Shown piece after piece: positions 1,829-50,342 of a DNA stretch of 64,000 nt. Location: assembly GCF_947623445.1 (NCBI RefSeq), contig NC_135245.1, forward strand, positions 1,371,501 to 1,435,500, given 5' to 3'. The translations under genes were made by a program, and so were the position numbers. The DNA comes from Clavelina lepadiformis (lineage: Eukaryota > Chordata > Ascidiacea > Aplousobranchia > Clavelinidae). Each line of letters opens with the position of its first letter. Position 1 is the stretch's first letter. The notes beneath the pieces are model-generated. The model worked only from the letters and a program-made list of their open reading frames with translations, did no database searches and was not told where the DNA came from.

Positions 1829-2426
1829 TTACATAGCTTCATAATTCTGTCGAATATGAAGCCGTAAATAGTAAGTCAGAAAAGTGGCAACACCGTAGCT
1901 AAGAATTGGTGAAAACCATCCTAAAATATATGAAAATCCGTAATCCGAAGGAGATTTCCATTGAAATCCGATTGTGAAAATGATCATTGCTAACCCAGTA
2001 CAACAACCTAAACACACGGAGGCATTAGAATCTAGTCTGAAACGCATTTTCATCAAAGCTTTGTTCAGCTAGTGAAAGCTACAAGACAACTTATCCTAAA
2101 TATAACTTACCCGCAATGGCAAGACAGAAAGTAGTTAAACGTTGACTAAGACTTGGTTCATTGAGATTACGAAACAGAGCCAACCAGGAGATGACTTGGA
2201 AAATTACTGAAATAATTAGTAAAGCTCTAACAGCCTCAAGGAGACCGGTTACTTCGAATCCACTTTGCGAGTGCGAAGAGCATTCAATTTTGTCGCAAAT
2301 TTCCCAAAGTCCGACTGACATCTCTTCGTCGTGTTTCCAATCTTCTGTTGCCAAAGATGCAATAGTCAACGCCAGCAAGCAAGTAATTAAAAACAGCCCG
2401 CTGTGCAAAACCGTCTTCTCATCCAT
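1829..2426 (-). CDS. Claudin/PMP22-like four-pass membrane protein (1), two exons
   Basis: Exon 1 is 2426-2111 and exon 2 is 2007-1829, joined by a 103-bp GT-AG intron in phase 1 (the codon for Gly106 is split). The product is about 164 residues with four hydrophobic segments (roughly 8-27, 65-86, 96-115 and 133-152). It has the claudin-superfamily first-loop signature: Trp30, GLW at 39-41, Cys44 and Cys49. AVRAL at the start of TM2 and GFSYILGW before TM4 recur in all the neighbouring genes. Such proteins usually act in cell junctions or as small membrane adaptors. The PMP22/EMP, claudin and related tetraspan groups cannot be separated by eye. The start is the first ATG of the frame and directly precedes the hydrophobic TM1. 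Confidence 0.87.
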
Positions 2427-3587: not shown

Positions 3588-4641
3588 ATGGACGACAACA
3601 CCAAACGGTTGGGCTATTTCTGCTTAGTTACTGTTTGCCTGGTTTTAAGCGTGGTCTCCATAGCAACACCGTCCTGGTATGCCAGAAGTGATGTGTATTC
3701 AGGACTTTGGCAAACTTGTGAAAATAATTCTTGTATGGATTTGGATGCGACACCCTTAATACAAATAGTAAGATCATTTCTTTTTGTTGGGATAATTTGT
3801 CAGGTAATATCCGCCGTCCTCGCTTTGACAAAACGTTTCCGAGTTTCTGGCGTCATTCTTGTTATATCAGGTTAGTACAGTATCGAATTAACTGACTCTG
3901 CGTCCTTATGTTTTGTGATTAGGTTATGATTTTTAAATCAATCGACGTAGACGCCCGGAAAGATTTTCCTCTTTAACTTAAAACTTGCTGATTTTCATTT
4001 TAACTTATTATGCAGGAGCCTTGGAAATGGTTGGTCTTGCTATTTATGCGATTGGGATTTTCAACAACGATCTTGGTTATTCCTATTTCCTCGGTTGGGT
4101 CTCTGTATTGCTCAGTTATTTCGGTGGCGTTGCCGGACTATTTCTTTATAGCAGACAAGACGATGCAAATTTGGCGCGCGAGAGATCCTACGCTAGAAGT
4201 GGAGAAAGTGCTGGGGTCTACAACCTCCATCGGCCTGGAGGAAGCACTTTTGTGAACCGAGCAGCACAAGATATAGATGATCGTGATCGTAGTATGAGAT
4301 TAAAGAGAAGTGGAAATGAGGAAGAAAGCGATGCTCAATGCACAGAAGAAGAACACGAGATGGGAAGTGCTTACGCTAATATCGAAGGAGCTGGAGGCGA
4401 AGGTGACGGTTGTGGAGGAGGAGTAGGTCGTGGTGGTGAAGGTTTTGGAGGAGGTCATGGTGGTGGAGGAGATGGTGGTACTGGAGGAGGATGTGGTGGT
4501 GGAGGAGGAGGAGGAGGAGATGGTGGTGGTGGAGGAGGAGGAGGAGGAGATGGTGGTGGTGGTGGAGGAGGAGGTGGTGGTGGTGGAGGAGGAGGAGGAG
4601 GAGGGTGTGGGGGAGATGGCGGAGGAGGTGGTGGAATGTAA
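3588..4641 (+). CDS. Claudin/PMP22-like protein (2) with very long glycine-rich tail
   Basis: Exon 1 is 3588-3870 and exon 2 is 4016-4641; the 145-bp intron is phase 1 and lies where it does in the other family members. The predicted protein is about 302 residues. Trp30, GLW at 39-41, Cys44 and Cys49 match gene 1 position for position. VRSF marks TM2 and GYSYFLGW precedes TM4. After TM4 comes a charged cytoplasmic stretch of about 60-70 residues. About 85 mostly glycine residues follow, with interspersed Asp, Glu and Cys, encoded by GGA/GGT runs (about 4390-4638). The tail stays open to a TAA. Such tails are not a feature of ordinary claudins as I know them. Purine-triplet slippage could make its length variable. 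Confidence 0.85.
4390..4638. repeat. GGA/GGT triplet low-complexity tract inside a coding exon
   Basis: Almost uninterrupted GGN codons encode the polyglycine tail of the 3588-4641 gene. The long open frames here on both strands (Ser/Thr-, His/Leu-, Val/Glu- and Trp/Arg-rich) are shadows of this repeat. Confidence 0.9.
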
Positions 4642-6779
4642 CAAAACTTGCAAGAAACAAGAAAAAGTTTATTGATTGATTACAGATGCTTCTCGGACTG
4701 GTGTTATGAACAAAAACTTTAGCATTCTTCTTCGTGCCTGTGACGTAATGAAGAGATTCAGCAAATATATCGACCCGCCAAAATATGTATTGTGCGTCTT
4801 GCAATAGTGAATAGATATTGCGAATTCAAACCACTGTGAAAAAACAAAACAACAACCTAAGTTCTGTTAATGCGTCCATATGTATTGTGCGTTATTGTAG
4901 CTTTGCATGCTGCGCAAGTGTATCTTCTATTCTGTCCTTGCTTGCCATGATTTGGAAACGGTTTATAAAACGTTCACGATATATATGATGTAATTAAAAT
5001 TAGTTTTCTCGCAAAATAGTAGGTCTCATCACGTACATATTTTTATCCGAATCGAATGACAAAGCATTTTTCTGCCACCTTATGAAAATCCGGTTGTTGT
5101 AAGACTGGTAATTTTTGTTTAATGAACAATTGAGATTTGCTTATTTATCTTAAATAAACTGTGAAAGTGTTCAAACCCTTTCAGCTGCTTTCCTTCAAGT
5201 AGATCCTTAAGGAGAATTTATTTAAATATCTCGGTGGATGCTGAATTTTGTTAGTTATTTAAATTTGTTGTCTATGAAGCTGGAAGAACCTAGAATCTCT
5301 ATCAACAAAAACAGGGGTTATAGGTTTCTGTAACTGGCCTCTGTTATATAATTTTTTGGTATTTCCATAAACTCATTGTTAAAGACAAGAATGGAAACGA
5401 TGCAACTGTATGTGCCATTTTGGGCCCACTCTGGGGAGAGGTTTATTAAATTTATATTTCTAAACGAAAAATTATACTTAAATGCAGTAGAACTGTGAGA
5501 TGCAGAAGTAAAGGGCGAGTGTGGTGATCTATATATCTCGGTATAATTGAATAAAATTCAACAAAAGTTTCAAATCTACCAGTCAGAGTAGACTGAAAGA
5601 TGATCAATAATGTATAGGACTGTTGTTTAAGCCTGGACTAAAAGTAAACTCACTGAGAGAAATAACTCTGACTTACGACTACTGAAACGGAAAACATCGT
5701 AAACAAATGTTTCGACTACGTCAAAACACAGTGACGTCATTTGTGCTACCTTTTTGCGCTACTAATATTGACGCGGCCAATTTAGCGAGTGAGATACGTC
5801 ACAAAGCGAATACTTGCCTAGTGTCAAAACAACATTCACATGTGTCGAAAATAGGTAAAGACACGAAGGTTGTAAACGAAGTAAAGTGGAAGTGACTCAT
5901 CGCATTCTGCTTATCATTATATTTTTCTCGCTGTGAAAAGTTCGCGTCTGAAAGTGACGAGTGAAAAGTTAGACCCAGTAAGTGAAGCTTGTGTCAGATG
6001 ATACAGCTAAGAAGGATGGAAAGTAACGGACAGTCAGTTGTAAACTATGGATCTAAATACTGCTGGCAATGTATTCTATATGATTGACGCTACCCTATCT
6101 AAACCGGGTGCGCGACATTACTATTTTAACTATGTGTGGCCGACACTGCGCACAAATTTTCAATCGGTAATTACTCGAAAACTATATTATCCTATGTTGT
6201 ATGTTGTTTACAATATCCTATATTGTAAACTAATCGGATTTTTACAGGTTAGTAGCAAAAACATCTTGCTTCCTGTATACATCATAATTGTAAAACTAAA
6301 GAAAGTACATTCAGTGTAAATTAAGTATTTCTACAAGTGATACATTTCTAGAAGTTTTTCTTGTTACGCCGCGTCACGCTGCGCGGAAAACCAGCTGACC
6401 GCGAGAAGAGAACGCAAGAAAATAGTTAGTCGAGTTAGTGGTGCGTAAATGAGTAAACAAAAACGAAACGCTTCAATGCGGAGAGAGAGCAAAATTATGA
6501 AAATATGACAATATTTCAAAAATTACAAAATCAAACTTTATAAAACAAACCTGGAAAGATAACTGAACCTTTTTTAGGAAAAGTCACCAAATTTCAAGTT
6601 TCTACAGCAATCAGTGCAACTGTAGGCCACGTTTTGCTGTGATTGTGTGCGGGGTGGGCCACACAGAGTGTAGATAAGGTTGGTAAAGGTATCTTGCTTT
6701 AACGATTTTCTGCTTCTTAGACACTTTTATTTGTTTTATTTCACAGATCTTGCAAGTGAATAAATTTTTTTGATTCATC
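4642..6779. other. 2.1 kb intergenic stretch, no gene recognised
   Basis: Short open frames at 5707-5895 and 6047-6319 have no recognisable domain or splice context and are probably chance. Just before the next gene a pyrimidine-rich run ends in CAG at 6744-6746, about 33 bases 5' of its ATG. This could be a 5'UTR intron acceptor or a spliced-leader trans-splice site. Confidence 0.4.
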
Positions 6780-7624
6780 ATGAAAGACAAATCTAAAATT
6801 ATATTTTTTCTCCCCACAATCTTTGTCATCTTGACTTTGGAAGTAATATCTTTGGCGACACCAGAATGGGCCTATTTGGATATAAAATATGAAAAAGATT
6901 CAGAAAATATCGTTAAAGCCACTTTGGGTTTGTGGAAAATATGCCTGAAGGAAAGCAACATCTCAAACTGCTACGACTTTCCATCCCCGGATTGGAATGA
7001 TCTCGTTCATGACGCAGATGGTCCAAAATCTCCAGCAATAATAGAAGCTACTCGATGGATTTTAACCTCAGTAATTCCCTTCCTCGTTGCATCAGGATTA
7101 CTGCCGATATGGAACCATTACAAAGCTTTTAGTTGGGTGTTTTTGTCAGCAGGTCGATACCCTTGTACAAAATACTAACAGCCAGTCTTGACTGGGTCAA
7201 AGTAATACATCTAGATTTTACCGATTTGTAGAACTGGTTTTATGTAACTTTAATCACATCTATATACTCTGTCTTATTTGCAGGCTTCCTACAGCTTATC
7301 GGAGTGTTTATCTTTACCGGGCACATGTTTGGCAAGATAGGGGAAGGAGGGGCCGGTTATTCATTCTACATTGGCTGGGTTTCGGCCGGGCTCAGTTTTT
7401 TCGTATCTCTCTGGACAGTGATGTCTTTAAACAGGAAGTCTGCTTCAACCGGAAGTGTACGTCCTTACAGTCGTGGCGGTTATGGTGGTGGTGGCGGTTA
7501 TGGTGGTGGCGGCGGTTATGGAGGTGGAGATTTCGGTGGATCGGGAGGATGTGATGGCGGGGGTGGAGGAGGAGGAGCGTGCGGAGGAGGAGGAGGTGAA
7601 TGTGGCGGCGATGGTGGCGGTTGA
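6780..7624 (+). CDS. Claudin/PMP22-like protein (3) with GGY-type glycine-rich tail
   Basis: Exon 1 is 6780-7152 and exon 2 is 7284-7624, with a 131-bp phase-1 intron. The product is about 237 residues. Trp30 is conserved. The first extracellular loop is longer than in the siblings, with GLW at 50-52, Cys55 and Cys64, and about 20 extra residues between the second Cys and TM2. ATRW replaces the AVRA motif and GYSFYIGW precedes TM4. The C-terminal 50 or so residues are glycine-rich, beginning with repeated GGYGGGG units and ending in GGDGGG. The donor is GTCGAT, weaker than in the paralogues. A poly(A) signal AATAAA lies at 7675-7680. Likely a tandem relative of the 3588 gene, because only these two carry glycine tails. 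Confidence 0.85.
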
Positions 7625-10029
7625 TGTGGATTAGGAGGTGGTGAAAAAAGAGAGAAAAAGCTCCTACGCAAACAAATAAAAATTGTAAATAACATTTGGG
7701 AGTATATTTTGCCGATTTTACTTCTTTACCTTGAAGTCAAACTTGAAGCCTCGAAGCCAAATGGAATGTCGAAGATGACTTTTTTCTTTTTTAACATCTT
7801 CTACGCGATCTGATTTATCTTAAAGTTTTATTAAACTTTTGCGTATTTACGTTTTCTGAAGTAATCGCAAAGTGTTTAACCCGCCTCTTGCACTTCGACA
7901 TTATTGATCCTTTTACCTATTTTTGCACTTGCTGTCAAACTGGGGCTATTATTAAAGTTAGCAACAGAAAAAAACATGTGCTGTGTCTTATTGTTATTGC
8001 AAATTTTCATCATGTCACTGGAAATCGACCAGTAACTGGGAAAGTTTCATGGAAAAATTGAGAAATTGAGAGAAATTGAGTAATTTTATCGAAGCGCGTT
8101 GACTTCATGTTCTCCTTTTTTCCTTTTCAGTGCTCACACTTTGCAACTAGACGAGTCTTAAATGCGTCATAATGTAAATAAAAGCGCCATTCAAAGCATA
8201 GTTGTAAAATCGGGACGTACCAAAACAGATGACGCACGATTTAAAATCAGATTATTTTTTAAAAGTGACTTATCGCTTCTGCTTTGGTGATTATTTCCTC
8301 GCACACAACTAAAAATATGAACCACAATAACAAGAAACTAAATTAAGTATAAGGCCGGGCAAGTTGTCGTTTTCTCCTATAACTCGACTTGATTCAGTGG
8401 AGCGAGGACTTTACGCAACGACGCGAAACGTGGTGACTCGACTAGGTTTACGTCAAATACACTTTACTCTAAGCTCTATAACACTCTGTCGCTCTCTTTA
8501 CGATTTGCTGATTTGAGTTCGTTCAAGTTTATAATTTCCATGTTATGTGGCTTCTGTTAGATTCCCAAGTATGACTTTGCTATCTTCTACGAAGTGACTA
8601 TTTCACCGTGTGTAGGTCACGCAGCCTGTCGTTAAAGATAGGCGGTTAGGAGAATGGGTGTGCAAAAAGTTGGCTGAACCTGTATAAGGCTTTATTAGAG
8701 TTATATTTAGATTAAAAGGTGGATTTAGGTTTCGTTTACGATACTATTTTGTAACATTTAACTTAGGCTAACAAAAAACGGTTAAAAATAGTTTCGAATG
8801 CACAATGTTTTCCCGGTGAAACAGTTGCAGCAGTTGCTCTTCTATACTGTAATTAGGATATCGAAAGCCTTATGAGTTGATATCAAATGCGCGCAAGAAA
8901 ATTTTTTCTAAAATTTTCCATTTTTATTTTAACCTTTAGAAATTTTTATCCGTCGAATTTATTGCCTTTAAAGTCGGAGTTCTTCGAATTATTTTTCCAC
9001 TCGCTTCGGCTTAACGGCAAATATGAATATTCCTGTCATTTTTGTCGTAACTATTCCGTAATTTTGCTAAGAGAAACGTCTGTTCTAATACTTTAGTTGA
9101 CAATGACTCAGCCATATCTCGTAGCCGATATAAAAACATGTAATTTGAATTAAATGCAGCCATAAAAGAACTGTATCTGGGTCGAAATTTAAACTGATGT
9201 CATAGCTTACGTATACAAATAAATCAACAGTTGCAAAGTTCAAAAGTTATTTTAGAACAACAATGTCCGTTTAAAGGGTTCAATGCTTCCGTACACAAAT
9301 TTAAAATTATTTTTAGTTGCATTCCGGTTTTTGACGTTAAAATTGTGGCAAACAAACACATGAAAATCATCAACATATTTTATAAACTTCACCATTTGCT
9401 TGCTGGAGACGCTGCGACAACTTGAGACCATTGCGATGCGTTGCCCACTTTATAGAATAAGTACAAACATTTTTCAACTGATAAATTTTGACGAAAATTA
9501 ATTTTGCAAACATTTTGTTCACCGATTTAAGATTACAAAAGTTTCGGCAATGTTTTGTGCTCGATATCTTAAGCCAAATATTGAATCTATTTGACTTTTC
9601 AAAACATCAATATGTATACAAAGATGATAACACGTTCGTTTTGTAATGACAAAAATATACACAGCAATATAGCTGATATATTTTATAAGCTATATGACAG
9701 ATAAGAACAGATCTTACACTTTTGAAATATTACATGATCAAAAAATTTGAAATATTCATATTTGAAATTGTTTCATTTTCAAAACTTGCTACATTGTAAC
9801 AAGTATCATTATTATTTTCAGTAATAAAAATGCAAGATATAAGATGACGCTTGCTTCGACAGGTGTACTGAGAGGCGGCCATCATTATTATCATATAAGA
9901 CATTGTAATAAAAACTTCAACTTTACAGTATGTGGCAAGCTGTTTCCAACGAAAAAAACTTTCAGACAATTTGCTATAACCATAAACGCAATAAATGACA
10001 CTGTTACATCACTGGTACATTGGTTCAAG
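7625..10029. other. 2.4 kb intergenic stretch, 3'UTR plus a dispersed repeat
   Basis: AATAAA at 7675-7680 ends the preceding gene. Apart from the dispersed repeat at 8611-8838 the DNA is AT-rich with only short, unconvincing open frames (8887-9096, 9231-9425, 9730-10053). Confidence 0.4.
8611..8838 (+). repeat. Dispersed repeat, copy 1 (about 230 bp)
   Basis: Closely resembles 12019-12258 in the same orientation. Shared blocks include GTTAAAGATAGGCG, GAGAATGGGT, GCAAAAAGTTG, a GGTGAATTTA-like stretch and CCGGTGAAACAGT. Probably a short non-autonomous transposable element; no terminal repeats were identified. Confidence 0.7.
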
Positions 10030-10747
10030 TCACGTGTAAGCGCCAATAAGTAAATCTTCCCTCTGTGGTCGATGAGCTATTGCAGTGAAGACAGCCAGGG
10101 CAAAGCACAGGCCAGCCGGCAACCAGCCCAGAATAAAAGAAAAACCAAACTCGAATCCTGATTCGGATGACGTCATGTTTATGATGTACGCTGCCATGGC
10201 AACCAAGGTGCAGATTCCTGTGGAATGAAACATTTTAAAATTAGACTTTGATTAAAACATCCCGAAACTGGGGACATACAGTAAATATATAGGGGCATCT
10301 CACTATATAGGGTATATAACACATATAGGCCTATAACACCTAGCAGCAAACGGCATTTGTCAAAGAAAGATATTTATGTAAAAAAAACCGTAATTTTTTT
10401 CTCCTGACGTGGTTTTAGCTCTGACCTGACCATAGCAGCAGAGCCGTGGTAAGTTTTCGATGATAACTTTTGTTGGAAAAAGCGTAAATTATCGAACAAG
10501 TCGACATCGCTTGGCCCACCATCGACATTATAATGAAAGCCCGGACTGCTTGAATATAAGGAGGTTCTTTGATTCCAATTGTTGAAAACGACCTGCAAAG
10601 ATGGCTGACGCAAACTTCCCATAAACCTTGTGACATCTTGTCATGTGATTTATGAATCCAGTCAGTCGTGACGAAAGAGACGAGTGAGAGTGTCACAGAG
10701 CACGTGATGAAAAATATCTCAAAGGAGAGTAGAAAATTTTGATTCAT
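10030..10747 (-). CDS. Claudin/PMP22-like four-pass membrane protein (4), two exons
   Basis: Exon 1 is 10747-10426 and exon 2 is 10217-10030, with a 208-bp phase-1 intron. The product is about 169 residues. I chose the internal ATG at 10747 rather than the far upstream one because it starts MNQNFLLSFE directly before TM1. It also places Trp at residue 30, as in all siblings. GLW is at 41-43, Cys46 and Cys51, followed by RSF; QAVRAF opens TM2 and GFSFILGW precedes TM4. It shares the C-RSF and (I/L)KE motifs in loop 1 with the next gene, which points to a recent common origin. No glycine tail. Confidence 0.86.
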
Positions 10748-11720: not shown

Positions 11721-12761
11721 CTATTCAGGGACAGGATATACGGGTGGGTTTCGTTCCTTGAAACAATAAATGAACCCAGCGATCAAAAAAGAAAAAGCGA
11801 AGTTGATCCACCCCAAGTAGAAGGAATAACCGAAACTGACGGAGAAAGACAAGTGGTATTTGGTGGAAAAAACGATCATTGCGATGAACATAAAGACACC
11901 TGAAAAAAGTATACAGTATACACCAGTCAATAATATACTTACATGCAATTGTAACTTAAATATACTTAAATAATTAAATATAAATATTATTAGTTTTACA
12001 AAGTGAGCGTTTTATCGTAAGTAGACCACGCGTAGCCTGTTGTTAAAGATAGGCGCTTAGGTGAGGAGAATGGGTATGCAAAAAGTTGACTTTAGCTGTT
12101 TAAGGTTATATTTGGGTGTGATCTACTGTGATCTATACATTAGAAGGTGAATTTAAGTTAGGTTTAGGTTACTATGTTATAACATTTGAATTAGGTTAAC
12201 AAGAAACTGTGAAAAATAACTTCGAACGTACGATTTTTTCCGGTGAAACAGTGGCAGCCTAAGCTATATGTTAACTCGAAACTTCTGCAAATGGGTGACT
12301 GCTATTGGAAATGACCTTTTATAGGTGATGTAAAGTAGGTCACTAAGTAGTCACTATGTAGGTATGTCGTCACAAATAAATTTAAGAGTTTGCGTCAAAA
12401 ATCAAATTTAAAATCACGAGTTTAAGAATGGGCTACCTGCTGACATCATAACGGACGATGTGTTTCTGCGGTGGTTACCGGACTGGTTCTTAAATGCCAT
12501 GAGAGTGAGGGCCAAGGCTGTGCATTGGAATATCATGGACATTATACTAAAGGCTCGGACAGCGTCGACATAAGCTGCTTCTTTGAGCCCCAGGTCCCAG
12601 AATGAGCGACATATATTACTGAGACAAAGTTGCCACAGACCAATTGAAGAGTTGTCGTAAGAGGAATGCGCCCAAGCTGCTGTTGCTTGGGAAACGATAG
12701 CTAGGATGAGGGAAACGGAAATCAGAACAACTGTTACTTGAAGCTGTTGGGTCGGATTCAT
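11721..12761 (-). CDS. Claudin/PMP22-like four-pass membrane protein (5), two exons
   Basis: Exon 1 is 12761-12437 and exon 2 is 11899-11721; the phase-1 intron is the longest of the family (537 bp) because it contains a dispersed repeat (12019-12258). The product is about 167 residues. Trp30, GLW at 41-43, Cys46, Cys51 and the CRSFWDLGLKEA stretch parallel gene 4 (CRSFSTIGIKEP). DAVRAF opens TM2 and GYSFYLGW precedes TM4. The C-terminus is short and ends in PPVYPVPE, which is not an obvious PDZ ligand. Genes 4 and 5 are adjacent on the same strand and look like a tandem duplicate pair. Confidence 0.87.
12019..12258 (+). repeat. Dispersed repeat, copy 2, inside intron of claudin-like gene 5
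   Basis: Matches 8611-8838 over about 230 bp with small insertions. It lies in the only long intron of the family, so its insertion explains part of that length. Confidence 0.7.
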
Positions 12762-14416
12762 TTCAAACGCAGTGCTTTGATATTAATTTAAGAAATTCCG
12801 TGTCCTACACAACCTATAGGAAATTAAATAAATCAACTTTTCACCCAAACTTTACCTGGTTTAAATGCTCTTTGATTTATTTTAAAAAAGCACTAAATAA
12901 TAAGAGTAAATAAACATATAACGTGAACTTTAAATCCCCTTTACTGCATAAGCACAAAACTAACTTGGCTCAATTGAAGAATGAACGTAGCTTTACACCT
13001 CATCTGGTTTTATGCTGACATTTTTTCTTGACGTTTTAAAGTACTTTACTATCCGTAACCGGTATACAGCAAAGTTGTTTGAAGTTAATATTTAACCGAA
13101 TATGCAGGATGTATTTACGCCAGGCTAATTAAAGCTTGTTTGTATAGCCAGCTTGCGTATAACAAAAACGGATAATAGTTTATTTCAGGTCGCAATTAAA
13201 ACATTTGGAAATTGTTGTTAAAAATTATCAAAAAATAAAATATAGGCCTATGTGTTTTATCAGCTTGTCTGCCTCAGATTAAGTGATTATAGGCTATTAG
13301 CATACAGTATAACAGCCTATTCCAAGTATATAGATAAACAAAATGTTTGTGTCTTCAGCTAAGGGAACAAGATATCATAACATAAGGACTTTTACAAACT
13401 ATTCTTGTATAACTTTGTGTACTAGCATCAGAAAACTGCCATGATGCAAATCTTTCGGGTTTCTGAAAGCAAAGACAATCGCAAAAGGCAAGACTTTGGC
13501 TTATAATAACCATCGCTCTCCAAACTTCCTTCTTCCAGAAGAAGATTTTATTTTGTAATGGTGTTCGTGTGTGTGTGTGCCTGATGGTACTCACCGCCAA
13601 TGCATAGGCGAATGAGTGGGTCAATAAGAATTATCGGTACTAAAGTCTCTGACAAACTTACCCTATTCAGATAGAATGTCAAATATTTGGCATCTAGCCT
13701 ACACTGTTGTTACAGACTTTACGTAAACCAGTCGATTCAGAGAAGGTTCTAAGACCTATCTATAATCTATGTACAACCTAGTGTGGAGTCGATGTGATTA
13801 CATCAGTAATGTTTAAGACATCCAGTGTGAGAAGCATCTCCACTGGAAGAACTACTTTGAGTTACATGATTTGGGTTTATACTTAGATGGTTTCTGTATT
13901 CAACTGAAAAAGTGCAACATGTGAAAAAATGCGATACCAAAATGCTCAATAACCAATCTTAGAGACATAAAAGCTTTCAACGCTGGTATACTTACAAGCA
14001 ATACCTTAACAAATGTATACGATTGATTGAAACTGTCAATTCAAAATTGATTGACATGCATTGAGGGTTGATCCCATTTCTTGAAACACTATAACTAGCG
14101 TTAACGAAACGCAGTCATTTGCTATAGCGGTAAAATGAAATTCGAAACCTTTGACTGCGCGTTGAATATCGATTACTCTGGTCTGCATGAAAATTTTATT
14201 CTGTATGATGCCAACGTTTTCTAGCTAATTTTGGTGCGCTGATTTAAAAAATGCCATCCTTTTTGGCCTGTCACATCAGGTTTTAAAGTTACGGTCGAAA
14301 AACCGCATAATTTTTCGCTTTTACGTTTTACTACCCACTTTTTTGTCAAAAGGATATAATTTGTCAAGATAAATTTTGTTATCACAACGAGCTACGTATG
14401 TGCATCAAAGCTACGT
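12762..14416. other. 1.65 kb intergenic stretch, nothing recognised
   Basis: AT-rich sequence with one minus-strand open frame (13355-13624) that has no recognisable domain or splice context. No repeat with a partner in the window was found. Confidence 0.4.
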
Positions 14417-15865
14417 ATGTGGTACCAGAAAAAACTCAAGAGCCTTCCCTTTGGCGTCCCTATACGGTATGTAGGGAGCAAAAAAACTATCGAAATGACT
14501 GTTATTTTTGTATGGTGTATTAAAGGGTTTAACAGAAGAAACAAATCCAATATCAAGTACCCTAATTTAAAGTCAGCATTGAGGTCTGTACCACATTGTG
14601 ATAAAATTCCTGTGCCGAATCCTCTAACAGAGATGCAAAGCTCCTCAGAATCTGAAAGAAGTGCAGGTGATGGAGAGCACTATCAGGAAGGAATAAACGA
14701 TGACTCTCCAGAGCTGTGTTCACAAACTCAGCTGAATGATCTCACAAGAGAGTTATATCTTTCAAAAGTATGTGCACAACTTCTAGTGTCAAGATTAAAG
14801 AAAAAGAATCTTCTAGAAAAGGGTACAAGTTTTGCGTGGTACCGCCACAGAGAGAAAAAATTTACAGAATTTTTTAGTAAAGAAAATACTCTGGTTTATT
14901 GGAAGAATGTTCAGGGTTTAGTTGAAACATTTGGGATATCATATTCAGCAGAATATTGGAGACTGTTCATAGATTCTTGGAAGACGAGCATGAAAGCTGT
15001 GTTGTGGTACAATGGGCAAACTGTGCCATCAGTACCTGTTGCACATTCTACTGATATGCCAGAAACGTATGAAAACACAGAAACTCTTTTGCAAATGATA
15101 AAGTACCAAGAGCATAACTGGTTGATATGTGGTGATTTAAAAGTTGTAGCTCTCATACTATACTACACTAAATTTCCCTGTTTTCTTTATCTCTGGGACA
15201 GTAGGGCGGATACTTCCCACTTTACTCGGAAATAGTGGCCAGCAAGAGATGAGTTTCTGCCAGGATCTAAGAATGTAAAGGCACATCCTCTTGTTGCTCC
15301 AGCAAAAGTTTTTTTACCGCCCTTGCACATCAAGTTTGAGTGCATGAAAAACTTTGTGAAAGATATGGACAAATACGGAGAAGGATTTAGGTACCTGCAA
15401 GAAAAGTTTTCGTCTTTATCCGAAGCTAAGCTGCAAGCAGGTATTTTCACTGGACCTCAAATCAGAGAACTGTTGAAGGATGAAGATTTCGAAAAAAAAG
15501 TCTATAACGGAATTGCAAGCCTGGAAGGGGTTAAAAGCTTTTATCCAGCAGTTCCATGGAAATAACAGAGCCTCCAATTACAAACAGCTTGTTACAGATA
15601 TGCTCGATGCCTTTCAAAAACTTGGGGTAGGATGAGCATCAAAATGCACTTTTTACCCTCCCACCTAGACTACTTCCCAAATAACTGTGGGACGTTTAGT
15701 GAGGAACAAGGTGAACGTTTTCACCGCGCGAAAATGGTGATAGAGGAACGCTATCAGGGTAAGTGGAATGTCAGCATGATTGCTGACTACTGCTGGTGTC
15801 TTAAAAGAGAAGACTCTACTAAATATGTGAGAAAATCAGGTAGACACGCATTTTCAATAAAATAG
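14417..15865 (+). mobile_element. Decayed transposon-like ORF of unassigned family
   Basis: Three successive open segments (14417-15235, 15323-15565 and 15632-15865) read as one protein of a repetitive family I recall from several invertebrate genomes. Landmarks in order are YPNLKSALR, ELNDLTRELYLSK-like text, HNWLICGDLKVV, HIKFECMKNFVK, IFTGPQIRELLKD, MSIKMHFLPSHLDYFP, EEQGERFH and ADYCWCLKRE. The copy looks broken, with a few frame interruptions. I cannot name the superfamily; a DNA transposon is the most likely class. A second, older fragment of the same family lies near 41.3 kb. Confidence 0.6.
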
Positions 15866-17223: not shown

Positions 17224-17897
17224 TTATCTATGGAGGCAACCTACGACTATAGACACTAAACCATTTGCGACGGCTGACACCCATCCCAGAACATACGAGT
17301 AGCCGTAAGAAGAAAGCCTGGCCTTCCCGGTGAATACAGCCATTGCTATGACCATGAACAAACCTGCAAAAACAATCAATTTTGCATTTCAAGTTAAAAG
17401 TATTCCTCCATTTTTTCCACATAGACGTAGAAGTACTGTATATGAATTACAATTAATTCTTCTGTAGATAATTTATTTAGTTTGGTTTTATGCTTATATT
17501 AAACTTATCCGTTATTACAAAGTATGTTAAGTTATCAAAACAAGAGGTTCTATAAACAGTGTCTATATATCAACATTTTACCTGCCATTGAAAGAAAACT
17601 GGTGCACATCTTAGGGTGATACTTTGGGTCCTTAAAAGCGTAGCCAATTGCGAAGAGGGCCAGAGCTTGGCTTATAATGGCCAGTATGCTCATCGCCCTA
17701 ACAGCTTCAAAGAAAGGAGGGGCGTCTGTGATGGCGAAACATCTACCGTTGGCACAAGATTGCCATAAACCCAACGACGTCTCGCCAACGCCAGAACCAC
17801 TTACAACCCAAGATGACGTTGCTTCGCTTACGATTGTCAAGATTAAGACAGTCAATGTCAGAATGATTTCCACCGAAAGGGCTACTTTGAGTTGCAT
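17224..17897 (-). CDS. Claudin/PMP22-like four-pass membrane protein (6), two exons
   Basis: Exon 1 is 17897-17582. Exon 2 is 17363-17224; it is only 45 codons plus stop, in a different frame from the longer open frame overlapping it. The phase-1 intron is 218 bp, and the correct frame is fixed by the splice and by the conserved GYSYVLGW motif. The product is about 151 residues, the shortest of the family. Trp30, GLW at 43-45, Cys48 and Cys53 form the claudin signature; EAVRAM opens TM2. It ends shortly after TM4 (GCLHR), so there is almost no cytoplasmic tail. Confidence 0.86.
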
Positions 17898-37928: not shown

Positions 37929-39879
37929 ATGAAACGTCACATTTTTGGAATCATTTTCATCGCCACAACAGCTGTTTCATGTAAGTTGTATAAAAACGTT
38001 GGCTTAGATTCCTTGCCTGTCTGTAATGATTGAAAGATTCATTATATACTATACATATATTATATGTTATATACTATATACTATACGATTGAAAAGTTAT
38101 ATCCTAATTCTTAAAGGTTATGAAACCAATTAAAGACATAGCAGAAATATTATTGATGGCCTTCTTTGTACCAGGTGACGCGTTACGTTGTTTCCAATGC
38201 GAAATACGCTTTAGTCTGGATTCTCCTGTTGATACATGCATCGGACAAAATGCAACGACATGTCCCGAGGAAGCCAAATTTTGCATTACAAATACCTCAG
38301 CGTCAAGTAAGTTACCAGCTACCAGTAGATATATTGCAAGGCTATACGTCACAGCTGAATGTTAAACATATGGGACTGGTCTGTATTCGATTGATGCAAA
38401 GTCCAAGAAACGTTTTCTTCAACGTGGTTGTTTTATTGTGGACAGTTGCGTCAACCTCGGATATTCTAGGATGTCACATCGGCAATAATTCGTTCCAAGA
38501 TTGCAGGTTAGCTGGTGATGATGAGGTTCATTGCAGTGTTACCTGCGACACAGGTGACAGGACATGAGTTGTCTTAAATGTTTTCTGCAGATACTTAAAC
38601 TAATTGCAACTACGTCACAATAACAGATGGTTGCAACTCGCCATATCCGACGTATGAAGAAGTTCCTCCGCTAGGGCCTGATATCGTTCCACCAATTCCG
38701 CGCATTCCGCCATCGTTACCGCCATTTTCGACGGATGTGCAAACCTCGCCGATTGGACCAACTAACGTAATACCACCAGGAGTCGTGCCATCGTTTCAAC
38801 CCCAGCCACAGCCAGATACAGGTGACATAGGGTTCCTACTAGGAACTGATATAATTCCTCCTCAAACCTCACCGGGAGTTGCACCTCAACCTCAAACCAC
38901 AGCAGGAATCGAACTCGAAAGAGGTACTTGTTATATGTCTTTCTATGTTATATGTGTTGGCAATATAAGTATTTATGTGTCATATCATTTTACGTCCTTC
39001 ATTAACAAATCAAAATTGTTTAAAAAGTTGCAACTTTTTTTAAAAGCTGGACCCGCAACTTGCATGAATCAAGCCTTAAACTTGATAACAAACTTTCTTG
39101 TTTTCTCCTGCCCAGTGGGACTCTATGGGCTGCTTAGGCATATCTACTGCTTTGTGCTTAATCACCCGACTTCTTATGAATAAACTAGTTAACAGCAATT
39201 TTGATATATTAATAACAGCTGTCGGAGAACTTAGCTGTTTCCAATGCTCTATTTTGAACTTCGATACTTTGCCGTTTCCTCTTGATGAATGCGAAGGGGC
39301 TTTCCCGCGTCCTTGCCCTGCTACAGAAGACAACTACTGCGTCATAATCACTACAACTGAACGTAACAATGAACAATTATAGTTTTGAACTTTGACACAA
39401 GAAATCTCATAGCTTCGATTTGAAGCCTCCTATAACTAAATCTTTATTAACAGCCGGTATAAGTTCGGTGGTACGAGCTTGTGATGCGAATACTTCCATT
39501 ACGTCATGTTCGACCGTAGGCCAAGTAAGAACATGTGCCGAATACTGCTCTACAGGTAAAAGTCGTGTCTTTGCTTCCATTTAATTCACGATAACATACA
39601 AAGCACACAATAAATAACCAAAGCAAAATTATCGCAATAACAGGTGGTTGCAACAGTCTGGAAGGCATAATACAAGAAGCTACAACCGTCTCTGATGCTG
39701 GAATGCAAGGCGGTGAAGGTGGCGGTGATGGTTGCGCCGCCAAGAAGGTGCAAATTAGCCATTTTTCTCTGCTCAATATTGTTTTGGATCATGCCACGAG
39801 GACATCTGGCGGTAGTGAAACAACTAATGAAGCAAGTTTGTTCAACAAAGTCATCGGTCTTATAAAGAAACTGTTGTGA
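37929..39879 (+). CDS. Two-domain LU protein (paralogue A), altered C-terminus
   Basis: Seven exons: 37929-37980 (signal peptide MKRHIFGIIFIATTAVS), 38175-38306, 38446-38553, 38627-38923, 39219-39362, 39454-39555 and 39644-39879. All introns are phase 1, giving about 356 residues. LU1 begins LRCFQC and ends CSVTC-DT-DGCN. A proline-rich linker of nearly 100 residues follows. LU2 begins LSCFQC and ends CAEYCSTGGCN, with Gly where the siblings have Asp. The siblings end in a hydrophobic GPI-type tail, but here about 10-11 bases are missing just before the equivalent stop. The tail becomes hydrophilic (ATRTSGGSETTNEASLFNK) and ends in IGLIKKLL. This copy may be secreted, or it may be decaying. 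Confidence 0.83.
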
Positions 39880-42966: not shown

Positions 42967-44802
42967 ATGAAACGTCACATTTTTGGAATCATTTTCATCG
43001 TCACAACAGCTGTTTCATGTAAGTTGTATAAAAACGTTTGCTTAGATTCCTCGCCTGTCTAATATTCTATATAATAATTGAAAGGTTCATTATATACTTT
43101 ATATATTATACGATTATAGAGTTATAACTTAATGCTTAAATTATATGAAACCAATTAAATACATAGCAGTGATATTATTGACGGCCTTCCTTGTACCAGG
43201 TGACGCGTTACGTTGTTTCCAATGCGAAATACGATCTAGTCTGGATTTTCTTGTTGATACATGCAACGGACAAAATGCAACAACATGTCCCGAGGAAGCC
43301 AACTTTTGCATTACAAATACCTCAGCGTCAAGTAAGTAACCAGCTACCAGTAGATATATTGCAAGGCTACACGTCACAACTGAATGTTAAAGCGATAGCA
43401 AACATATGGGACTGGTCTGTATTCGATTGATGCAAAGTCCAAGAAACGTTTTCTTCAACGAAATTGTTTTATTGTGGACAGTTGCGTCAACCTCGGATAT
43501 TCTAGGCTGTCACATCGGCAATAATTCGTTCCAAGATTGCGTACTTGCTGGTGATGATGAGTTGCATTGCAGTGTTATCTGCGACACAGGTGACAGGACA
43601 TGAGTTGTCTTAAACGTTTTCTGCAGGTACTTAAACTAATCGCAACTACGTCACAATAACAGATGGTTGCAACTCCCCATATCCGACGGATGGAGAATTT
43701 CTTTCGCCAGGGCCTGATATCGCTCCACCAATTCCGGCCATTCCGCCTTCGTTACCGCCATTTTTTCCACCGCCATCACCAGATACAGGTGATATAAGGC
43801 CTCCTCCTGGAACTGATATAATTCCTTCTCAAATTCCACCGGAAGTGGAAATTCCTCCGGAACTTGAACCTCCTCCACCACCTACGCCAGGAATTGAACC
43901 AGACAGTATGTTATATGTCTTTCTATGTGTTTGCAATGTAGATATTTATGTGCGATAAATTTTTGCGTCCTTTATTTCAAATCAAACGTTTAAATAGCGG
44001 CAACGTTTTCAAAACCTCGTCCCGCAACTTGCATGAATCAAGCCGTAAACTTGGTAACAAACTTTCTTGTTTTCTCCTGCCCAGTGGGACTCTATGGGCC
44101 GCTTAGGCATATCTACTGCTTTGTGCTCAATCACCCGACTTCTTATGAATAAACTAGATAACATAGTTTGTGATATATTGATAACAGATGTCGGAGAACT
44201 TAGCTGTTTCCTATGCACTACCTTGAATGTTGATACTTTGCCGTTTCCTCTTGATGAATGCGAAGGGGCTTCCCCGCGTCCTTGCCCTGCTACAGAAGAC
44301 AACAACTGCGCCATAATCACTTCAACTGAACGTAAGAATAAACAATTATAGTTTTGAACTTTGACACAAAAATCTCATAGCTTCGATTCCAAGTCTTCTA
44401 TAACTAAATCTTTATTAACAGCTGGTTTTCGTTCGGTGATACGAGCATGTGTTGCGAATATTTCCATTACGTCATGTACGACCGTAGGCCAAGGAAGAGT
44501 ATGTTCCGAATACTGCTCTACAGGTAAAAGTCGTGTCTTTGCTTCCATTTAATTCACGATAACTTACAAAGCACACAATAAATAACCAAAACAAAATTAT
44601 CGGAATAACAGATGGTTGCAACAGTCTCGAAGGCATAATACAAGAAGCCACAACTGTCTCTGATGCTGGAACGCAAGGCGGTGTCGGTGGTGGCGGTGGT
44701 GACGGTGGCGGCGGCGGTGGTGGCGGTGGCGCCGCCAGGCAAGTGCAAGTCCACCACATAGTTTTGCTCAGTGTTGTCTTTGCTCTCCTTTGCCTATCAT
44801 GA
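42967..44802 (+). CDS. Two-domain LU protein (paralogue B), GPI-type with polyglycine spacer
   Basis: Seven exons: 42967-43018, 43200-43331, 43482-43589, 43663-43905, 44188-44331, 44422-44523 and 44612-44802. All introns are phase 1, giving about 323 residues. The signal peptide differs from paralogue A by one residue (Val for Ala). LU1 (LRCFQC to CDT-DGCN), a proline-rich linker (18 residues shorter than in A), then LU2 (LSCFLC to YCSTDGCN). The last exon encodes a glycine-rich spacer (GGVGGGGGDGG and onward), AARQVQVHH, and a hydrophobic end IVLLSVVFALLCLS, a typical GPI signal. Together with paralogue A it is a recent tandem duplicate including both flanks. Confidence 0.87.
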
Positions 44803-49059: not shown

Positions 49060-50323
49060 TTTAAATTTCTATTAAACGCTGATCGCCCAACGCTAAACTT
49101 GTTGGCGTTTTTGTTTCGCGTTTTTCGATGTTGGCTCATACGTTTCAATACGTTTTCTCGTACGTTCTGAAGGTTTTTAAAGTGAGTTGAATAAATGTAA
49201 GTGTTTCACATCGGCTTTCCACGTGCAAGACAAGGTTACAGTCAATGGATTAATTATAAGAAGTCGGTGCAGTTTTAGCTTTTTTACCTACAAACTCACT
49301 CACTTTTAAACTCACTCTCGAACGAAACGTTTCTGGTTAATAATCTAATAAACGATTTTGGGTGTCTTTTAGGTACCGAATCCAAATCTGCTACTAGGTT
49401 TTTCTATCACGCCTAGATTTTGCATTATTGAAAACGGAATGAAAAATGAATCAGTGCATTTTTATTGCAATGTTCGACGTGTTGTTAAAACAACGCTAGA
49501 GGCTGGAACAGCAATTGTTTCTACAAGACTAAAAATTGCCAAAACCTTCATCAAGACTTCATAGCTTGAAGTATGAGCTGTATTGGAGCCTATATGTTAC
49601 CTCGCTTCGGCGTATTGCCTGCCTTGAGTTATTGTTGGACGAAAACAAATTTTCCTTGGAAAGACGTGAGAGATCTTTTCGTCGTGCAGTCTGTCTATCA
49701 TGCTGTCATCATCTGTCTATCTGTCTGTCTGTCTGTCTAACAGTTCAGAATCTCTCTTCAAGCTTTGCCACAAGTTCGGATGACTTTTAACGTTTGCTCT
49801 TGCACGTTCTGTAGTGAAACAACTGAGCATCGATGGAGTTCGCAGAAACGAAATTGGAAAATGTCAACACGGAATTGGGGATTTTGACCGGCTAGAAAGG
49901 TTGTCTGTGACATTCCATGCCTGGGGCTAGAATATGAGATGTCGATGGTGGTGACGGCTCCAATCCACGGCTTTCGGATTTTTAATCCGCTAATTTTCTT
50001 GAAACGTCCGACACACATTTCTCCAGTAATTTTCTCATCGGTGCAAACAGATAGGCCTACTCTGCTATATCTGCTCTCTGTTATCAACCACAAGTTATCA
50101 TGAACATGAACATGAACATGAACACGGTGGTGAGCAACATGTCAATACTGGAATGTATTTCATCGCCTTCATCGCAATTTGGTGAAAGAAAATGATTTGA
50201 TGAAGTTCGCTGTACGGACAAATATGAGAATACGTTTCACTTCGAGACGTTTTTAATCGGTTTTTAAACATAGTAAAAACGAAATGTTGGTTGAAGCGAG
50301 CGCATATGTTACTCTATTGAGGA

Positions 50324-50342
50324 GGGGGGGGGGGGGGGGGGG
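50324..50342. repeat. Poly-G run of 19
   Basis: Nineteen consecutive G directly abut the left end of a MITE-like element. The length is likely unstable, and sequencing error is possible. Confidence 0.9.

Follow-up and report, generated by a model that had tools for sequence, protein, structure and literature searches.

The locus described here raises the question of whether the long glycine-rich ends of two claudin-like genes, P1 and P2, are genuine protein, and what such a tail might do on a tetraspan membrane protein. Both genes lie on the plus strand of a 64,000-nucleotide stretch of the Clavelina lepadiformis genome (contig 6, which is chromosome 6, 1371501-1435500; hereafter the window), and the genome searched comprises 209.06 Mb in 95 contigs. 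Each gene is modelled as a complete ORF interrupted by one GT-AG, phase-1 intron, with P1 (3588-3870 + 4016-4641) encoding 302 aa and P2 (6780-7152 + 7284-7624) encoding 237 aa:

3588..3870, plus strand: P1 exon 1, with TM1, extracellular loop 1 (W-GLW-C-C, NNS sequon), TM2 and the start of TM3 (gene model, PF00822, hydropathy)
4016..4641, plus strand: P1 exon 2, with the remainder of TM3, TM4, a linker of ~80 residues and the glycine tail (gene model, hydropathy)
4387..4638, plus strand: P1 glycine tail, 84 residues with 67 Gly, 3 Cys and 1 Phe; longest Gly run 18
6780..7152, plus strand: P2 exon 1, with TM1, a longer extracellular loop 1 with an NIS sequon, TM2 and the start of TM3 (gene model, PF00822, hydropathy)
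7284..7624, plus strand: P2 exon 2, with the remainder of TM3, TM4, a short linker and the glycine tail (gene model, alignment)
7475..7621, plus strand: P2 glycine tail, 49 residues with 36 Gly, 3 Tyr, 1 Phe and 3 Cys, in a glycine-loop pattern and with an order common to P3 (see below)
7675..7680, plus strand: AATAAA, candidate poly(A) signal, with its first base 51 bases downstream of the P2 stop codon; the tail would be inside the transcript

The first-pass annotation had described both proteins as running past TM4 into glycine tracts that stay open to the stop. This holds for both genes, with the qualification that the P1 tract does not directly follow TM4: by hydropathy, some 80 mostly polar residues (139-218) intervene, as against a spacing of ~15 residues in P2 as judged from hydropathy and alignment.

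P1 and P2 match PF00822 with 44.0 and 38.8 bits respectively, both over the cut-off of 26.7, and the residues W30, G50-L51-W52, C55 and C64 (P2 numbering) are invariant in all eight aligned genes. Hydropathy yields four helices in P1 and in a third tailed gene, P3, and three over threshold in P2, the TM4 of which was placed by alignment with P3. In searches against solved structures, the family profile recovered MP20/LIM2 as the best match, followed by the TARP gamma subunits and then the claudins. The P1 core alone recovered LIM2 (E 1.2e-5), P2 alone gave no confident match (best E 0.16), and the P2 tail alone matched no solved structure; matches of whole P1 to glycine stretches of unrelated chains (E 0.03 or worse) were dismissed as composition only. 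The genes are thus best called members of the PMP22/MP20/claudin superfamily. Classical claudins end in a YV-type PDZ ligand, whereas P1, P2 and P3 have the glycine tail in its place and terminate in GGGM, DGGG and GGDC respectively. The label 'junction-type' given to these proteins earlier is therefore not upheld, as the closest solved relative is MP20/LIM2 and none of the three tailed proteins has the YV-type end. Superfamily homologues have both their N and C termini in the cytosol. Taken together, the four helices, the TM1-TM2 loop with its W-GLW-C-C signature and sequons, and the family homology imply that the glycine tail would be situated inside the cell.

P3 was recovered in a genome search with the P2 core as the query and lies on the minus strand of the same chromosome (exons 1242981-1242609 and 1242438-1242128), 135 kb from P2. 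Besides P2 itself, that search returned P3 as the single close relative, along with weak hits to a further family member, M5 (E 0.015), and to P1 (E 0.22); a genome search with P3 at E up to 1 returned P3 and P2 only. Using the eight cores as tblastn queries (E at most 0.01) uncovered no further member between 1236001 and 1372000. The P3 tail comprises 40 residues, of which 28 are Gly, 2 Phe and 3 Cys. A genome search with only the P2 tail found just P2 itself and missed P3, and is therefore uninformative regarding the frequency of such tails.

The other plus-strand frames of the glycine repeats are, for the most part, also free of stops; hence, an open glycine frame is weak evidence for coding, and we rejected it as proof. 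The comparison of P2 with P3 bears on the issue at the codon level. Across 187 codons the cores are 51% identical (dN 0.363, dS 1.177, dN/dS ~0.31), and across 39 aligned codons the tails are 77% identical (dN 0.22, dS 0.78, dN/dS ~0.28). Of the 32 differences between the tails, 16 are non-synonymous, where the numbers of sites predict 72% (binomial P 0.007). As repeats can align too well, and as aligning triplet repeats tends to produce matches in phase and may depress dN, these values were accompanied by shuffling and codon-blind controls. When the P3 tail was shuffled, the score of the real P2-P3 alignment was reached in 2 of 2000 cases. A codon-blind nucleotide alignment of the two tails places gaps of 12, 6 and 6 bases, all in-frame, with 3 mismatches at first, 5 at second and 13 at third codon positions (36 sites each). 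Gaps and mismatches were unchanged under a second set of parameters; under a third, the gaps were 6 and 6 bases and the mismatches 6, 8 and 16 (39 sites each). The aligned bases all fall in one phase, which triplet repeats would favour too. These observations suggest that at least the tail matched between P2 and P3 is probably a real protein segment under selection and not a junk repeat. The fusion of a tetraspan with a glycine tail proposed in the first-pass annotation is very probably true coding sequence, with the P2 tail having been kept in P3 even as about half of the core changed.

The P1 tail presents a contrasting picture. It shows no homology in order: the score of its alignment with P2 was equalled in 222 of 2000 shuffles, and that of its alignment with P3 in 1247 of 2000. 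Its codons include 37 GGA and 26 GGT, which form GGA/GGT blocks of period 27-30 bp. In 78 of 84 codons the third base is A or T, as in a plain GGW array, and departures from GGW number 8, 13 and 6 at positions 1, 2 and 3 (n=84); we rejected an argument for coding from third positions in this tail, there being no excess over such an array. The P1 tail thus looks like an expanded repeat. The difference in repeat style noted at the outset is confirmed: the P2 tail, which starts in the GGYGGGGG style, and the P3 tail are punctuated by aromatic residues, and that of P1 is nearer to pure poly-Gly.

Five related genes lack the glycine tail, four of them in the window:

1829..2426, minus strand: M1, related two-exon tetraspan (exons 2426-2111 and 2007-1829)
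10030..10747, minus strand: M2, related tetraspan (exons 10747-10426 and 10217-10030)
11721..12761, minus strand: M3, related tetraspan (exons 12761-12437 and 11899-11721)
17224..17897, minus strand: M4, related tetraspan (exons 17897-17582 and 17363-17224)
near 2.32 Mb of chromosome 6: M5, related two-exon gene

All five stop at most about 20 residues past TM4, and a single GT-AG, phase-1 intron occupies the aligned place in all eight modelled genes. A remnant at about 13466-13867 on the minus strand, which resembles M4 exon 1 in two pieces, one of 55 bases (78%, E 2.6e-9) and one of 44 (75%, E 7e-4), is probably a claudin-like pseudogene; it is too decayed for the tblastn search with the eight cores. 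In a tree of the cores, P1, P2 and P3 stand apart from M1-M5 with support of 96/95; adding LIM2 lowers this to 87/89, and a simpler model to 64/55. When P2 and P3 are left out, P1 instead joins LIM2 (57/76). A single gain of the tail in the P1+P2+P3 group would be the simplest account, and P1 may have made its own, separate gain.

A PF00822 search of the genome yielded 48 hits with E no higher than 1; 13 of these exceeded the cut-off, and a locus was cut out for 30, the remaining 18 having none of their own, although some fall within stretches covered in another way. When the loci from this search were pooled with those from the P2-core search and the placement of the window, setting aside the window genes and two P3 duplicates left 29 loci, including those of P3 (L032) and M5 (L046). 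The other 27 have 0-4 Gly in frame past the matched stretch; several of them are weak matches or internal or first exons, so that the C-terminus is not visible in all. A six-frame scan for at least 14 Gly per 25 residues, covering loci L001-L062 and the window, picked out P1, P2, P3 and an ORF at 44563-44802 (plus strand) alone. Within 203.5 kb (the window plus loci L049-L063, 500 bases counted twice), runs of at least seven GGN triplets occur in P1 (three runs), P2, P3, that ORF (44704-44730) and at 50321, and nowhere else, which is more than chance would give; the last is a plain poly-G run (50321-50342) rather than a GGN codon repeat. The ORF at 44563-44802, together with its look-alike at 39595-39879 (plus strand), is the last ORF of a repeated Cys-rich gene, possibly of the Ly6/three-finger type, three pieces of which matched nothing in Pfam at E 0.01. 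Its glycine tract is followed by a terminal hydrophobic stretch resembling a GPI-anchor signal.

Long C-terminal extensions on this fold are already known. MP20/LIM2, the lens fibre membrane intrinsic protein (PDB 9cbv; profile E 2.2e-17), aligns through the GLW motif and the two-Cys loop, and the match stops at residue 207 of its 218-residue chain, leaving no long tail there. The TARPs or calcium channel gamma subunits belong to the same superfamily (gamma-2, profile E 3e-11), and the gamma-8 chains, which are 422-423 residues long, are matched no further than residues 223-224; neither P1 alone nor P2 alone matches gamma-8. The gamma-8 tail contains low-complexity stretches. The chains of claudin-18, -19 and -15 share the superfamily fold and W-GLW-C-C (profile E 1.7e-8 to 8e-6). 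Synaptophysin, a tetraspan of the MARVEL family whose cytosolic tail is rich in Gly and Tyr, is an analogue of the tailed proteins with a different repeat. In terms of pattern, PMC4504709 describes glycine loops as poly-Gly broken by aromatics at intervals of 3-6 residues in the keratin head, and as stretches of 6-12 mainly Gly residues between aromatics in the keratin tail, and an adhesive 'molecular velcro' role has been attributed to them there. P2 displays such a pattern with four aromatics (Y-5G-Y-5G-Y-GGGD-F) and P3 with two (F-7G-F), whereas P1, with one Phe per 84 residues, does not. By this description, the ends of keratins 1/10 and loricrin resemble P2 and P3 in combining poly-Gly with regular aromatics, which are wanting in P1; these are not membrane proteins, and the likeness is one of pattern and not of homology. 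Titles and the opening parts of abstracts among open-licence PMC papers yielded no description of a claudin-superfamily protein fused to a glycine tail, and so do not contradict the first-pass remark that no family with such a fusion was known.

As P2 and P3 fit the glycine-loop pattern, with its attributed velcro role, we prefer a proposal in which P1, P2 and P3 represent a tetraspan lineage with a cytoplasmic, low-complexity glycine tail, contacts of which cluster the tetraspan; we assign this a probability of roughly 0.4. Under this proposal, the last exon of each gene would encode the cytoplasmic tail, which would act as a flexible glycine-loop segment; through its aromatics and Cys residues, tails would bind weakly to one another or to Gly-rich proteins of the cytoskeleton, and these contacts would cluster the tetraspan in the membrane, replacing a scaffold bound through a PDZ ligand. 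The P1 tail is probably of the same kind, in an expanded, aromatic-poor form that would serve more as a spacer. A more specific version, in which the tails self-associate as a glycine-loop 'velcro' and cluster tetraspans without PDZ scaffolds at junctional or cortical sites, with P2 and P3 as stickers and P1 as a spacer partner, appears doubtful at present.

Nearly as likely as clustering, and a better account of P1 taken alone, is tolerated triplet expansion, whereby a little-constrained cytosolic C-terminus gathers GGN repeats that are translated and do little. The block-wise GGA/GGT arrays of P1, with their short periods, and the want in its tail of both a third-position excess over GGW and homology in order are what such a process would leave, and the glycine tract that is long in the ORF at 44563-44802 and short in its look-alike (a likeness judged by eye) is consistent with it. 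However, it does not readily explain the common order, in-frame gaps and third-position excess of the P2-P3 tails, nor why the remaining excised loci of the claudin superfamily show no Gly-rich stretch, either within them or alongside. The codon pattern of P2 and P3 also led us to reject microsatellite sequence as the whole explanation: that the tracts are non-coding, lying in a 3' UTR or being spliced out, is very unlikely, for even though the other plus-strand frames of the repeats are largely open, the sequence is stop-free from TM4 to the tract in P1, P2 and P3 with the glycine frame used in 3 of 3, and the AATAAA follows the P2 stop. It is consequently unlikely that the tract proves to be a microsatellite, as the earlier refuting condition had it, in P2 and P3; the sequence pattern of P1 taken alone leaves room for it.

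The repeats might act as nucleic acid, with G-rich RNA or DNA quadruplexes regulating expression and the protein tail as a by-product. The sense-strand GG runs with one-base spacers in P1, P2 and P3, as read from the codons, would suit this; nevertheless, P2 and P3 diverge most at third codon positions, which is a better fit to selection on protein, and we consider this idea quite unlikely. An extracellular tail tying the cell to the tunic, a link suggested in the first-pass annotation, draws on the resemblance of GGYGGGG to silk- or matrix-type glycine proteins, the analogy made there, and on nothing else. The four helices and the W-GLW-C-C loop with sequons between TM1 and TM2 point to a cytosolic C-terminus, and on this topology we rejected the tunic link, which would be the least credible of all these explanations.

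Should a maintained glycine-loop tail on a claudin-superfamily tetraspan prove true, it would join two fields studied apart, namely that of barrier and adhesion tetraspans and that of low-complexity self-associating segments of the keratin/loricrin type. P2 and P3 offer a natural comparison, with the order and frame of the tail kept and the core diverged by half, and P1, adjoining P2, provides a contrasting, nearly pure poly-Gly version. If the velcro reading were true, it would constitute a second, low-complexity route to cell-sheet cohesion in chordates.

Two further features lie among the untailed relatives in the window. Between M3 and M4, three adjoining long ORFs (14360-15865, plus strand) are possibly a mobile element or its remains; a Pfam search with two of them gave no match at E 0.01. 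About 0.6 kb past the 3' end of M1, positions 1149-1254 carry a tandem repeat with a 43-bp unit.
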